From NCBI GenBank assembly GCA_021296315.1, contig JAGWAO010000013.1, forward strand, positions 1 to 42,218: DNA of 42,218 nucleotides. Direction: 5' to 3'. This DNA is from Acidimicrobiia bacterium (GTDB taxonomy: Bacteria > Actinomycetota > Acidimicrobiia > Acidimicrobiales > Aldehydirespiratoraceae). Shown here one piece after another: positions 1-18,510 of this stretch. The notes under the pieces were generated by a model, which was not told where the DNA came from, made no database searches, and saw only the letters and a list, made by a program, of their open reading frames with translations. The number at the start of each line of letters is the position of its first letter. The stretch's first letter is position 1. The translations under genes and the position numbers were made by a program.

Positions 1-557
1 TCGTCGGCCATGTCGTCGGCCATGTCCATGTCGTCGCTCATGTCCTCTTCGCTCATGTCCTCTTCGCTCATGTCCTCTTCAGCCGGGGCCTCTTCAGCCG
101 GGGCCTCTTCAGCCGGGGCCTCTTCCTCGGCGGGCGCTTCCTCTTCGACCATCGGCTCGCCGACCTTGATGACTACGGTGGCACCGCTCGGGGGAGCCGT
201 GGTAAACACCAACAGCACCAGCCCTTCGGCCGGAACGTTGACGGTGATCGACGTCGAGAACGACCCTCCCGGCGCTGAGACCGTTGAGCCCATGTCTGAA
301 ATGAGGTTGGGACAGTTCGCTATGCTCGACCCTTGATCCATAGTGTCTGGCACGACGCCGCCGAAGCCAGTGCACGCTGTGATCGCCGGGCTTGCCGGCC
401 AGCCGCTTCCGGAGACGGTTACCGTGTGGCTGCCCGCCGCGCTGACGTACTCGGGATCGACGGATGCTGTCGGCTCGCCCTGAGCAGCTGCGTGGCTCGT
501 GAGCGTGAACAGGGCCAAAATGCTCACTGCGGCCGTCAGTGCCATGATTCTCTTCAT
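1..557 (-). CDS. Secreted protein with acidic repeat tail (3' end cut by window)
   Basis: This gene is not in the ORF track because it runs off the left edge. The minus strand reads from ATG at 557 with a good Shine-Dalgarno (AAAGGA, 8 nt upstream). About 185 codons are visible. The product has a Sec-type signal peptide: KR at residues 2-3, a hydrophobic core, and a likely cut after SHAAA near residue 25. A roughly 110-residue domain follows, with PTASVDPEYV near its start and two cysteines. It is loosely reminiscent of neocarzinostatin-like or Ig-like secreted actinobacterial domains, which I cannot confirm. The tail is low complexity: five-residue repeats APAEE, then EEDMS, from 15-bp DNA repeats, ending in an Asp/Met-rich stretch. 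A TATCCT box at 620-615 could be its own promoter. Function unknown. Confidence 0.8.
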   Translation of the reverse strand, partial: MKRIMALTAAVSILALFTLTSHAAAQGEPTASVDPEYVSAAGSHTVTVSGSGWPASPAITACTGFGGVVPDTMDQGSSIANCPNLISDMGSTVSAPGGSFSTSITVNVPAEGLVLLVFTTAPPSGATVVIKVGEPMVEEEAPAEEEAPAEEAPAEEAPAEEDMSEEDMSEEDMSDDMDMADDMAD

Positions 558-629
558 CGGTGCTGTCCTTTCATGGAGCTGGCAACTCTGTGCTAGCGCC
601 CGTTACTTGCGAGGAGGATACACATGGCA

Positions 630-1231
630 TGGGGGCCGGGTCCACCAGGCCGATCGCGGCCGGGACGCGACGGAGCCCCGAGTAGCCTCCCGGCTTGCGC
701 CGCTCAACTTCTCGGGGCTCCGATTGCGCCTATCCACCGACCGCATCCTCCCGGCAGAGTCTGCGGTACTCCGGGACACTTCGCCGTATCCGGCTCGGTG
801 TCCTGATCCCCGCCCCGGACGGCTCCGTGGCGTGAATCCGAATCACCCGGCGGTGCCCGTCGGCACCTACTGAGGCTCCGATTCTGCCCGCTCCCCGTCG
901 GGACCGGACTCGAATCCGATGCCTCGGCGACACCCTCACCTGGAGGCGGTTCCGGTGACTCCCTCGCACACCCGGCGGTGTGCTCGGTTGTCGCCGGGCT
1001 TCCCGGCGAGGCGGATCTTCTGCGACCTTGCGATCACCCTCCCCCGTCGGGGATTCCTACCGCTCGCTCGAAGGAGAACCTCCGTGCCCCCGGCTGACCC
1101 ACCGACTCCTGGGAGCCGGTCTGGTTGGCAGGGTGTCCTCTGCGGACCGCTCCACCAACTCCGTTCCGCTGCCTCGGGCCGAGGCCCTGGGCTGCTGGTC
1201 CGGTGTCGGTGTCGCTGCTCACTTCGGACGC
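630..1231 (-). ncRNA. Candidate large structured RNA or long structured leader
   Basis: The 837 bases between the two flanking genes (558-1394) contain no convincing protein gene. The minus strand is unusually rich in hairpins. A perfect 12-bp stem joins 671-682 to 711-722 and encloses a 4-bp hairpin with a GCAA (GNRA) loop at 691-702. Other perfect stems are 740-745/762-767, 852-857/862-867, 966-972/977-983, 991-998/1002-1009, 1040-1044/1049-1053 and 1090-1095/1114-1119. A 15-nt palindrome lies at 1171-1185. A second GCAA-loop hairpin lies at 1024-1035. A plausible promoter sits just upstream at 1237-1265. I found no RNase P, tmRNA or SRP RNA signature. The ends are guesses. It could instead be the 5' leader of the secreted-protein gene. 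Confidence 0.4.
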
Positions 1232-1236
1232 TGGGC

Positions 1237-1265
1237 ATCTTGGGAGGTTCTCGCGGGGTTGTCAA
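1237..1265 (-). promoter_or_regulatory. Promoter with palindromic operator over the -35 box
   Basis: On the minus strand, TTGACA (1265-1260), a 17-nt spacer and CAAGAT (1242-1237) form a sigma70-like promoter reading into the hairpin-rich region. The -35 box lies inside a perfect 15-bp palindrome, GGGGTTG-T-CAACCCC (1255-1269), which looks like an operator. Confidence 0.45.
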
Positions 1266-1276
1266 CCCCAAAACGC

Positions 1277-1317
1277 GAAATCCCCATCGAAATCCCGAAC
1301 ATTCTCAAGAAATCCCC
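1277..1317. repeat. Three direct GAAATCCC repeats upstream of promoter
   Basis: GAAATCCC occurs at 1277, 1289 and 1309 (plus-strand orientation), directly upstream of the minus-strand promoter at 1237-1265. The starts are 12 and 20 bp apart. These could be binding sites for a regulator of the hairpin-rich transcript. This is inferred from position only. Confidence 0.35.
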
Positions 1318-1330
1318 AGCCGCCGTCAAG

Positions 1331-1339
1331 TTATGCACA
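1331..1339 (+). promoter_or_regulatory. DnaA-box-like 9-mer TTATGCACA
   Basis: Matches the DnaA-box consensus TTATNCACA. It lies in the gene-free stretch, about 870 bp from a second match at 2205. No dnaA, dnaN or AT-rich unwinding region is visible, so an origin is not supported. Confidence 0.3.
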
Positions 1340-1394
1340 GTCCGATCACAGACTGGTGCCGCTGGAAGGCTCCCGGCCGGCTCCCGACGGCGGG

Positions 1395-2156
1395 TCAGGC
1401 CCCCCAGTGGCCCCTCTCGATCATCACCCGGCGGAGCACCGAGGGGCGGTCGGTCATGATGCCGTCCACCCCCATGTCGAGGAGGCGGTGCATCTCGGCG
1501 GGCTCGTCGATGGTCCAGACGTGGACGGCTGCATTGTGACGATGGGCCGCGGCCAGCACCGCGGGTCGCACCAGCGTCAGGCCCTTGGAGCGGACCGGCA
1601 CCTGGGCGGCGTGGAAGTCGAAGGACGCGGGACCGGGCACGCGGGCCGAGGCAGCCAGCAGGCGTGCGATGCCCCGGGGCCCGGCACCGACGCACAACGA
1701 GTCCCCGATCCGGTCGCGCACCTGCCTGGTGCGCCGGTCCGAGAACGAGCAGATGCACACCCGCTCGACCGCACCCGCTCGCCGGAGCACCTCTGCCAGC
1801 GGGCCGACCGCCGCGTCGCTCTTGGGGTCGATGTTGATCCTCGTGTCCGGCAGCTCCTCGAGAAGCTCGTCGAGGCGCAGTATCGGGTCGGTGCCGGCCA
1901 CCGCGGCTCGCTGGACCTGGCTCCAGTCGAGGTCGCCGACCGCGCCGCGGCCGTCGGTGACCCGGTCCAGCGAGTCGTCGTGGAAGGCCACCGCCACCCC
2001 GTCGGCGGTGGAGTGAACGTCGGTCTCCACATGGGTGTAGCCCAGGTCCACGGCATGGCGGAAGGCCCTCAGCGTGTTCTCAGGGAACTCCTCGGCCCCG
2101 CCGCGATGAGCGAAGGCGATGGGGCCGTCCACGTCCAGGTAGGGATGGAGCGACAT
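1395..2156 (-). CDS. Glycerophosphodiester phosphodiesterase (GDPD family)
   Basis: Cleaves glycerophosphodiesters to glycerol-3-phosphate and an alcohol. At 253 aa with no signal peptide it resembles the cytosolic UgpQ type. The GDPD signature is intact: HRG at residues 17-19 followed by ENT at 26-28, metal-binding E44 and D46 (ETDV), and catalytic H59-D60. The C-terminal half has the expected TIM-barrel strands (HVWTIDEP, GVDGIMTDRP). The start is supported by a TACGGT box ending 6 nt before the ATG, which suggests a leaderless transcript. It diverges from pyk. A second GDPD lies at 40498-41244. Confidence 0.93.
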   Translation of the reverse strand: MSLHPYLDVDGPIAFAHRGGAEEFPENTLRAFRHAVDLGYTHVETDVHSTADGVAVAFHDDSLDRVTDGRGAVGDLDWSQVQRAAVAGTDPILRLDELLEELPDTRINIDPKSDAAVGPLAEVLRRAGAVERVCICSFSDRRTRQVRDRIGDSLCVGAGPRGIARLLAASARVPGPASFDFHAAQVPVRSKGLTLVRPAVLAAAHRHNAAVHVWTIDEPAEMHRLLDMGVDGIMTDRPSVLRRVMIERGHWGA

Positions 2157-2244: not shown

Positions 2245-3678
2245 ATGCAGCGCCGTACGAAGATCGTTGCCACCATCGGTCCGGCCAGCGAGGACGAGTC
2301 CACGCTGCGGGACATGATGGCCGCGGGAATGGATGTGGCCCGAATCGGCCTGGCCCACGGCACCCTCGACGAAGCCATCGAGCGCTACCGGCGCGTCCGG
2401 CAGGTCGCCGACCAGGAGGGCCGGCCGGTGGGGATCCTCGTGGACCTTCCGGGACCCAAAGTCAGGGCCGCAAGTTTCGGCGAGGATCCCGTGCGGTTCC
2501 GCTCAGACAGCGTCGTCGAGCTGGTGGTCGGCAGCGACCGCTCGACCGACAGCGTCGTCGAGGTGGACTACGAGGGCCTGATGGACGACGTGCTGGTGGG
2601 GGACAACCTCGATGTGGGTGACGGGCGGGTGGTGCTCGACGTCACCGACAAGGGTGGCGACCGCCTCAAGGTCCGCGTCGTGCACGGCGGCGTTCTGTCG
2701 GGCTGCCCCGGCGTGCACATCCCCGCCGACCGGCTGCGGATGTCCACGCCCACCCCCAGCGACTTCGTGGCGCTCGACGCCTTCATCGAGCTCGGCGTGG
2801 ACATAGTGGCCATATCGTTCGTGCGCTCCGCCCACGACATCCGGCGGGTCGGCACCGAGCCCCATCCCCGGGGCCCGCTGGTGGTGGCCAAGATCGAGAC
2901 CAGGGCGGCGGTGCAGAACCTGGCCGGCATAATCGACACCGCCGGGGCGATCATGGTGGCCCGCGGCGACCTCGGCAGCGAATGCAGCATCGAGGAGCTT
3001 CCCCACCTGCAGAAGCAGATCATCCAGCAGTGCATCGCGGGAGGCCGTCCCGTCATCACCGCCACACAGATGCTTGAGTCGATGGTGTCGCGCCCCTCGC
3101 CCACCCGGGCAGAGGCCAGCGACGTGGCCAACGCGGTTTTCGACGGCTCCTCCGCGTTGATGCTCTCCGGGGAGACCGCGGTCGGCATCGATCCCGCCAA
3201 CGTGGTGCGCACCATGGACCGGATCGCCCAGCGAGCCGACGAGCAGTTCGACTACGAGCTGTGGGCCGAGCGCCTCGCCGAGCTGCGCATGACCGACGAC
3301 TCGACCCATGACGCGGCCTCCATCACCGACGCCATGACCATGGCGGCCTGGCGGGCCGCCGACGGGCTCGGCATCTCCACCATCCTGGCCATCTCCGGCA
3401 CCGGCTTCACGGTGCGGTCCATGGCCCGGTTCAGGCCCCAGGCCCGGATCATCGGCTTGTCGCACAACGCGCGGACTGTGCAGCAGCTCACGCTGAGTTG
3501 GGGCACCACGCCGGTGCTGGTCAACGACAGGGGCTCCAACGATGAGATGGTCCGCCAGGCGGTGACGGTGGCGCGTGATCGGGATTTTGCCCGTTCCGGC
3601 GAGATCGTTGCGATTCTGGCCGGCGCCGACAACCGGTCCCGCAGCGCCAACGTGCTCCGCTTGGAGCGCATCCCGTAA
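2245..3678 (+). CDS. pyk: Pyruvate kinase
   Basis: Converts phosphoenolpyruvate and ADP to pyruvate and ATP in glycolysis. The protein is 477 aa, normal for a bacterial enzyme. It begins RRTKIVATIGPAS, the conserved pyruvate kinase N-terminus. The active-site signature VVAKIETRAAV is at about 213-223 with its catalytic Lys at 216. The metal and substrate loop MVARGDLGSE is near 237, and the conserved TATQMLESM follows near 272. The C-terminal allosteric domain is present and the protein ends ANVLRLERIP. I start it at ATG 2245; the longer track ORF adds 20 residues translated from promoter DNA. Confidence 0.97.
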   Translation: MQRRTKIVATIGPASEDESTLRDMMAAGMDVARIGLAHGTLDEAIERYRRVRQVADQEGRPVGILVDLPGPKVRAASFGEDPVRFRSDSVVELVVGSDRSTDSVVEVDYEGLMDDVLVGDNLDVGDGRVVLDVTDKGGDRLKVRVVHGGVLSGCPGVHIPADRLRMSTPTPSDFVALDAFIELGVDIVAISFVRSAHDIRRVGTEPHPRGPLVVAKIETRAAVQNLAGIIDTAGAIMVARGDLGSECSIEELPHLQKQIIQQCIAGGRPVITATQMLESMVSRPSPTRAEASDVANAVFDGSSALMLSGETAVGIDPANVVRTMDRIAQRADEQFDYELWAERLAELRMTDDSTHDAASITDAMTMAAWRAADGLGISTILAISGTGFTVRSMARFRPQARIIGLSHNARTVQQLTLSWGTTPVLVNDRGSNDEMVRQAVTVARDRDFARSGEIVAILAGADNRSRSANVLRLERIP

Positions 3679-3706
3679 CTCGCCACCCCCGGCCTGACCG
3701 GATGAG

Positions 3707-3970
3707 CTACCCGCAGTTGGGGTTGGCGTCGGCGGGGATGGCGACTTGCCGGCCGTACAGCCGGCAGGAGCAGGTCTCCATGCAGTCCTGCAGATCGGAG
3801 CGCTGCAGCCACAGGCTCGCGGCCAGGGCGCCGATGAGGATGATCAGCACCAGCCGCAGCAGCAGCCTGCGCACGCCCCACATGACCAGGACGGCGAGAA
3901 CGCCCAGCACCACGATCGCGCCGATGATGATGTCCGGCAGAGACTCGGCATCGACCCATTCGCCCATCAC
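3707..3970 (-). CDS. Small membrane protein of unknown function
   Basis: 87 aa, starting at GTG 3970 (or ATG 3967). It has a short acidic N-terminus, then two closely spaced hydrophobic segments (about 13-32 and 37-51) separated by RR. A cysteine-rich C-terminal tail follows (CMETCSC and a terminal C near the last residue). I do not recognise a family. It faces the DUF3151 gene in a 32-bp divergent spacer with a TAACGT box 8 nt before its start. The cysteine-rich tail would be outside the cell if both segments span the membrane, which is a guess. Confidence 0.7.
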   Translation of the reverse strand: MMGEWVDAESLPDIIIGAIVVLGVLAVLVMWGVRRLLLRLVLIILIGALAASLWLQRSDLQDCMETCSCRLYGRQVAIPADANPNCG

Positions 3971-17871: not shown

Positions 17872-18510
17872 ATGGCTACGCCGATGTTCGCGCTCCAGTC
17901 GGTCCTCCTGCCCGGGTTGCCGCTGCCGCTCCATGTCTTCGAGCCGCGCTATGTGGCCATGCTCGACACCGTCATCTCGACAGACGCCGAAATGGGCGCC
18001 GTGCTGATCGAGCGCGGCCGGGAGGTCGGGGGCGGCGATGTGCGGTGCGATGTGGCCACCATGGCCCGCGTGGTGGAGACGCAGGAGTTGGCTGACGGCC
18101 GGCTGCTGGTGATGGCGCTGGGAGTGCGTCGCATCCGGGTGCGGAGGTGGCTTCCCGACGATCCATATCCCTGCGCCGAGACCGAGGACTGGCCCGACGA
18201 GCCCGAAGATGAGTGGTCGGAGGCCCCTGAGCTGCTGCGACGGCTGTCCGGGCTGGTCTCGGAAGCCCGCAGCCTGGCCAGCCGCTTGCGGTTCGGGTCC
18301 GCGCCGCCCGAAGCGGCCGGGCCGGCTCCCGTCGATCTGGGCCACGACCCGTCCGAGGCCTCCTACCGGGCTGTGGCCCTGACTCCGCTCGGTCCGCTCG
18401 ACCGCTACGAGGTGCTGTGCGCCCCGAGCGCCAGCCAGCGGCTCGCCGTGGCGCACCGTGTCGTGGCCGACGCCGTGGAGTTGTTGCGAGCAAGATCGCA
18501 TTGGGGCTAA
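17872..18510 (+). CDS. LON substrate-binding-domain protein
   Basis: 212 aa with only the Lon N-terminal (substrate-binding) domain and no ATPase or protease part. The pattern is LPGLPLPLHVFEPRYVAML, then GAVLIERG, ARVVETQELADGRLLVMALGVRRIRV, and a helical C-terminal half ending LLRARSHWG. Such stand-alone LON domain proteins are common in actinobacteria; their role is unclear. ATG 17872 has GGAG 11 nt upstream. It is probably co-transcribed with dacB. Confidence 0.88.
   Translation: MATPMFALQSVLLPGLPLPLHVFEPRYVAMLDTVISTDAEMGAVLIERGREVGGGDVRCDVATMARVVETQELADGRLLVMALGVRRIRVRRWLPDDPYPCAETEDWPDEPEDEWSEAPELLRRLSGLVSEARSLASRLRFGSAPPEAAGPAPVDLGHDPSEASYRAVALTPLGPLDRYEVLCAPSASQRLAVAHRVVADAVELLRARSHWG

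Follow-up and report, generated by a model that had tools for sequence, protein, structure and literature searches.

The window, the whole stretch of 42,218 nt of Acidimicrobiia DNA that was analysed, contains at positions 558–1394 a region of 837 bp which, as the preliminary description had it, is without genes; it is bordered by a secreted-protein gene (ORF 3–557, minus strand, start at 557) and a GDPD gene (1395–2156, minus strand, Pfam GDPD). The promoter, direct repeats and stems of this region are all minus-strand features, and on that strand a structured RNA of approximately 568 nt is predicted at 663–1230, its start placed 7 nt past the −10 box and its end assigned from the terminal hairpin. 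Compared with 20 dinucleotide shuffles, folding of the minus strand gave a z score of −8.5, against −5.8 for the plus strand. The earlier proposal of a new large structured RNA of about 600 nt is strongly supported at a size of ~570 nt, on the evidence of homologues of 554–576 nt in other genera with a consensus fold, covariation, noncoding indels, a strand test, and a conserved promoter and terminator. We are nearly certain that 663–1230 is transcribed as one RNA, its ends being predictions from sequence. No account of this RNA was found in the open-access literature.

In a DNA search of 41 relatives, 12 further genomes of the genus aligned over about 590–800 nt at 83–88% identity; the RNA itself is 81–89% identical across the genus, most of the RNA was kept in 13/16 genus genomes, and short conserved patches reached the level of the order. 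In a strand-corrected genus alignment, the conserved block began at the GGGGATTTC repeats, took in the promoter and closed just past the terminal hairpin, with sharp edges on both sides. Indels within the RNA, relative to the window, were all of 1–2 nt, none a multiple of 3. Because no reading frame survives such indels between homologues of the same genus, the RNA is taken to be non-coding; a protein-coding reading was rejected, the ORFs across the region not being conserved and their frames being disrupted. Moreover, 48/49 homologous RNAs were more stable on the RNA strand than on its complement (mean 37 kcal/mol).

The predicted promoter is of the housekeeping type (TTGACA-17-CAAGAT, 1265–1237, minus strand). 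Its −35 box, TTGACA (1260–1265), is conserved in the genus and appears as TTGAC/TTGCA in mapped homologues; it lies 17 nt from the −10 box, CAAGAT (1237–1242), whose position is conserved in the genus alignment and in relatives. The operator-like palindrome noted previously, GGGGTTGTCAACCCC (15 nt, 1255–1269), does surround and contain the minus-strand −35 box, but is largely restricted to the genus and was not seen in other families. The three upstream direct repeats are present as described, as GAAATCCC(C) at 1277–1285, 1289–1297 and 1309–1317, and correspond to minus-strand boxes GGGGATTTC (the closest to the promoter), CGGGATTTC and GGGGATTTC, respectively. Further upstream, at 1330–1340 on the minus strand, CTGTGCATAAC matches the DnaA-box consensus TTATNCACA (GTTATGCACAG on the plus strand).

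The same layout and boxes recur at the promoters of homologues in diverse families. Upstream boxes of most mapped promoters are of CTGTGGAnAA and CTGGGGATTTC types, mostly in one orientation and often spaced by ~1–2 helical turns, in an array that ends near the −35 box. GGGGATTT was present in 33/43 upstream regions, compared with 0.9 in shuffles, and the DnaA-type motif TGTGNAYAA in 13/43, compared with 0.1; promoter mapping demanded one GGGGAT/GTGGAT-type box near the −35 box, which biases the box count upward, but not to three. Clusters of TGKGGA boxes (at least 3 within 110 nt) occurred at 22/50 RNA promoters and in 5/6 dnaA/oriC regions, and only once elsewhere in a background of ~281 kb of flanking DNA. 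Those 22 RNA promoters carry the oriC-type box cluster by which a DnaA-regulated promoter would be recognised in sequence, and it is likely, as judged from these boxes, that DnaA controls the RNA promoter. The simplest reading of the motifs is that one factor, DnaA, would bind both the RNA-promoter and the oriC arrays; GGGGATTT departs from the canonical DnaA box, and another factor could bind the array. An oriC-like array at an RNA promoter offers a way to test directly whether replication control is tied to a noncoding RNA. In the dnaA regions of relatives (L150–L155), the oriC clusters of Acidimicrobiia consist of TGKGGA boxes, many of them TGGGGA variants, and lie in either the rpmH–dnaA or the dnaA–dnaN spacer.

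Sixteen long-form sequences (554–576 nt, a length that is near-constant across genera) were aligned over their full length. The RNAalifold consensus comprised 92 pairs, 44 of which had changed on both sides, compared with 23.5 ± 2.6 in shuffles (0/500 as high) and 12–23 when partners were slid. The element at the 3′ end (671–722, minus strand) is a hairpin composed of a 12-bp stem, an R.A mismatch, an AGUU/GGCU helix and an inner hairpin with a GCAA loop. Its outer stem, 671–682/711–722, is as perfect as first reported, inner GCAA loop included, and the hairpin, from which models R1 and R2 were built, covaries over both 16 and 58 sequences. Since the G-U pairs of the AGUU/GGCU helix are invariant, they fix the strand of the RNA. 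In several families of relatives a T tract follows directly on the hairpin, which therefore appears to double as a terminator. A second stem singled out earlier for a covariation check, 991–998/1002–1009, exists and shows paired changes within the genus (TCGCCGGG/CCCGGCGA versus TCACCGGG/CCCGGTGA), although in the wider consensus part of it has other partners.

The interior of the long form is rich in stable hairpins. Four conserved helices of alignment A4, all on the minus strand, carry GNCG loops: CCCC-GACG-GGGG (helix 5, 1041–1054), CACC-GCCG-GGTG (helix 7, 969–980), UCCC-GACG-GGGA (helix 9, 892–903) and GGUGCC-GACG-GGCACC (helix 10, 852–867). Across 25 long forms, hairpins with a C-GNCG-G loop and a stem of at least 5 bp numbered 69, compared with 4.7 ± 2.2 in shuffles; by the same stem criterion there were 23 GNRA hairpins against 6.3 and 11 UNCG hairpins against 1.8. 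The repetition of one specific loop suggests that the GNCG hairpins may form a multivalent binding site. None was present in short forms, so they cannot represent a universal function of the RNA.

Short forms were found in relatives from other families, where the RNA is only ~160–380 nt long: promoter architecture and 3′ hairpin are kept, and the middle is replaced. Together, the long form (~570 nt) and the several short ones define the core of the RNA. The 3′-hairpin model (R1, later R2) matched in 105/298 genomes of the order, 124/394 of the class and 30/397 of the phylum, that is, in approximately one third of the sampled order and class genomes and sporadically in other Actinomycetota. Some weak matches in these tallies reflect chance or simple terminators; three such loci (L065, L068 and L069) were not used as family members, yet are included in the counts, and the same holds for weak covariance-model matches that palindromic stems gave on the opposite strand. 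Around two thirds of the sampled class genomes had no match to the hairpin model, including close relatives (genome G011 of the genus, and sister genus g2). When ~85,000 species were scanned for the pattern, 73 stretches were recovered, nearly all from Acidimicrobiia or unclassified Actinomycetota; three pattern matches inside coding sequence (L142, L143 and L148) were set aside. In family f56 (L040, L041 and L044), the terminal hairpin is present twice, the copies ~95 nt apart, in an RNA of ~360 nt with GNRA loops. In MAGs of other Actinobacteria (L066, L067, L080 and L090), a hairpin sharing the internal-loop motif (GAAGUGAGUAGG/GAAGGCUACUCGG) sits right at promoter-like sequence, with little RNA ahead of it.

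A search of Rfam 15 with the window and 20 related loci gave no family above gathering threshold, and in E-value mode only chance-level matches, bearing out the initial impression that no known motif was matched. RNase P RNA was rejected as an identity, a separate RNase P RNA being present in the own genome and in 23/24 relatives. That the RNA represents a new family, found in Acidimicrobiia and some other Actinomycetota and absent from Rfam, is well supported.

Taken as a whole, the data are probably best explained by a stand-alone large structured RNA that is controlled through a DnaA-box array and acts in trans by protein binding. In the mechanism we propose, the array adjoining the −35 box would be bound by DnaA, or by another factor that recognises these boxes, and the bound factor would set RNA output by replication or growth state. 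The RNA would then act in trans through protein binding, with the conserved 3′ hairpin as a putative common docking or terminator module; in long forms, the recurring GNCG-loop hairpins would be multiple copies of one binding site. The resemblance here is to CsrB/RsmZ, stand-alone protein-sequestering RNAs which likewise present many copies of one hairpin-loop motif; theirs is a GGA loop, whereas the new RNA has GNCG in a C-G closed stem and a conserved global fold. Taken separately, action in trans via protein binding is plausible, if somewhat short of probable. More tentatively, DnaA may directly gate RNA synthesis, such that a large multivalent RNA couples replication-initiation state to how active a sequestered protein is, RNA polymerase being one possibility; if true, this would be a replication-linked riboregulator without known counterpart. 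By analogy with Ms1 and CoRP, RNA polymerase is a candidate partner, albeit a doubtful one.

The competing reading that survives best, although on balance unlikely, is that the RNA is an RNA-polymerase-binding analogue of 6S, Ms1 or CoRP, which stores or tunes the polymerase in a lineage where 6S and Ms1 are not recognisable. The 6S model (RF00013) had no match in any of 25 relatives, and the RNA is present in about one third of the sampled genomes of a widespread Actinomycetota class in which 6S RNA is not recognisable. The Ms1 model (RF02566) was silent in the own genome, and the window too scored below gathering; this is weak evidence, because no control genome matched either. There is precedent in Ms1, which binds the RNA polymerase core (PMC9130861), and in CoRP, a 516-nt polymerase-binding RNA of corynebacteria, a group that yielded neither 6S nor Ms1 (PMC11077062). 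The sizes of long and short forms fit the range of such RNAs, the short forms being of 6S size and encoded, like 6S, by a chromosomal stand-alone gene. As with Ms1, the new RNA is a stand-alone structured RNA with its own promoter in Actinomycetota without 6S, and is without near sequence relatives in other lineages; with CoRP it shares similar length and actinobacterial origin. However, 6S RNA is a single rod with a central bubble, while the new RNA lacks a rod closed by end pairing: its consensus is many-branched, and a separate, terminator-like hairpin forms its 3′ end, features which set it apart from Ms1 also. Location differs as well. Ms1 lies near ori beside a HAD hydrolase gene (PMC9130861), whereas in five complete genomes (G018, G022, G198, G265 and G289) the new RNA gene is 27–48% of chromosome length from dnaA, and its neighbours are GDPD and secreted-protein genes in the window and other genes in relatives. 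CoRP, found in Corynebacterium alone, lies between tRNA-Glu/Gln genes (PMC11077062); as judged by location and taxonomy, the new RNA differs from it in both context and class. At that distance from dnaA the RNA cannot be part of oriC; in the same five genomes its gene tends to be origin-distal.

Bacterial RNAs this large and complex are few, and for many the function is not known; it could be supposed that this one, too, is an RNA-only ornate assembly of GOLLD, ROOL or OLE type whose function is to form a homo-oligomeric RNA particle. The preliminary description drew the comparison with ROOL and GOLLD, and in size and complexity it holds: the RNA has many conserved helices, near-constant length in its long form and plentiful stable tetraloops, and is similar to these families also in having a function that is unknown or poorly known. 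It does not extend to Rfam, phage or plasmid matches. The RNA has no match to the Rfam models of ROOL, GOLLD or OLE and shrinks to only ~160–280 nt in short lineages, and no phage or plasmid record matches it. ROOL and GOLLD are RNAs of phages or prophages whose genes often lie close to tRNA islands (PMC12286853), whereas the new RNA is chromosomal and associated with neither; the only tRNA in the window, tRNA-Pro at 18228, is 17 kb away. An ornate assembly is accordingly quite unlikely. A mobile-element or phage origin was likewise rejected, the single pattern match on a viral contig reading as a chance match in a coding region.

Less probable again is an antisense role in trans, in which exposed loops or linkers would pair with mRNAs. 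A stand-alone gene with a terminator-like end is common to many base-pairing sRNAs, but the conserved segments lie mostly within paired helices and tetraloops, and strict conservation of a whole fold over ~570 nt is unusual among such RNAs.

That the RNA is a long 5′ leader or riboswitch of the secreted-protein gene is very improbable: the gene at 557 is indeed co-directional and begins ~105 nt after the RNA in the window, as had been remarked, but this arrangement is incidental, as a FAD oxidoreductase follows in other species of the genus, the neighbours in other lineages are UvrD, DAHP synthase and others, some on the opposite strand, no co-directional downstream gene is conserved across lineages, and the hairpin that closes the RNA is terminator-like and is followed by T tracts in relatives. 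Because its gene neighbours change between lineages, the RNA is considered a stand-alone gene. The secreted-protein gene itself (3–557) contains acidic repeats, and one relative (L002) has two similar tandem genes (2290–2895 and 3128–3733) downstream of the RNA. There is scarcely any more room for a DNA element alone, a DnaA-titration site or replication-related sequence with the RNA as a by-product, for while the array of DnaA-box-like sequences is shared with oriC, it lies upstream of the RNA, which has a well-spaced promoter, and 663–1230 shows RNA-type covariation, with G-U pairs on a single strand and compensatory changes that contradict a role as DNA only.

Returning to the stand-alone RNA, its conserved 5′ end (1214–1230 of the window, GUCCGAAGUGAGCAGCG) is similar to the terminal hairpin's 5′ arm (GAGAAGUUGAGCGGCG, within 663–722), a likeness that possibly reflects internal duplication or alternative pairing.
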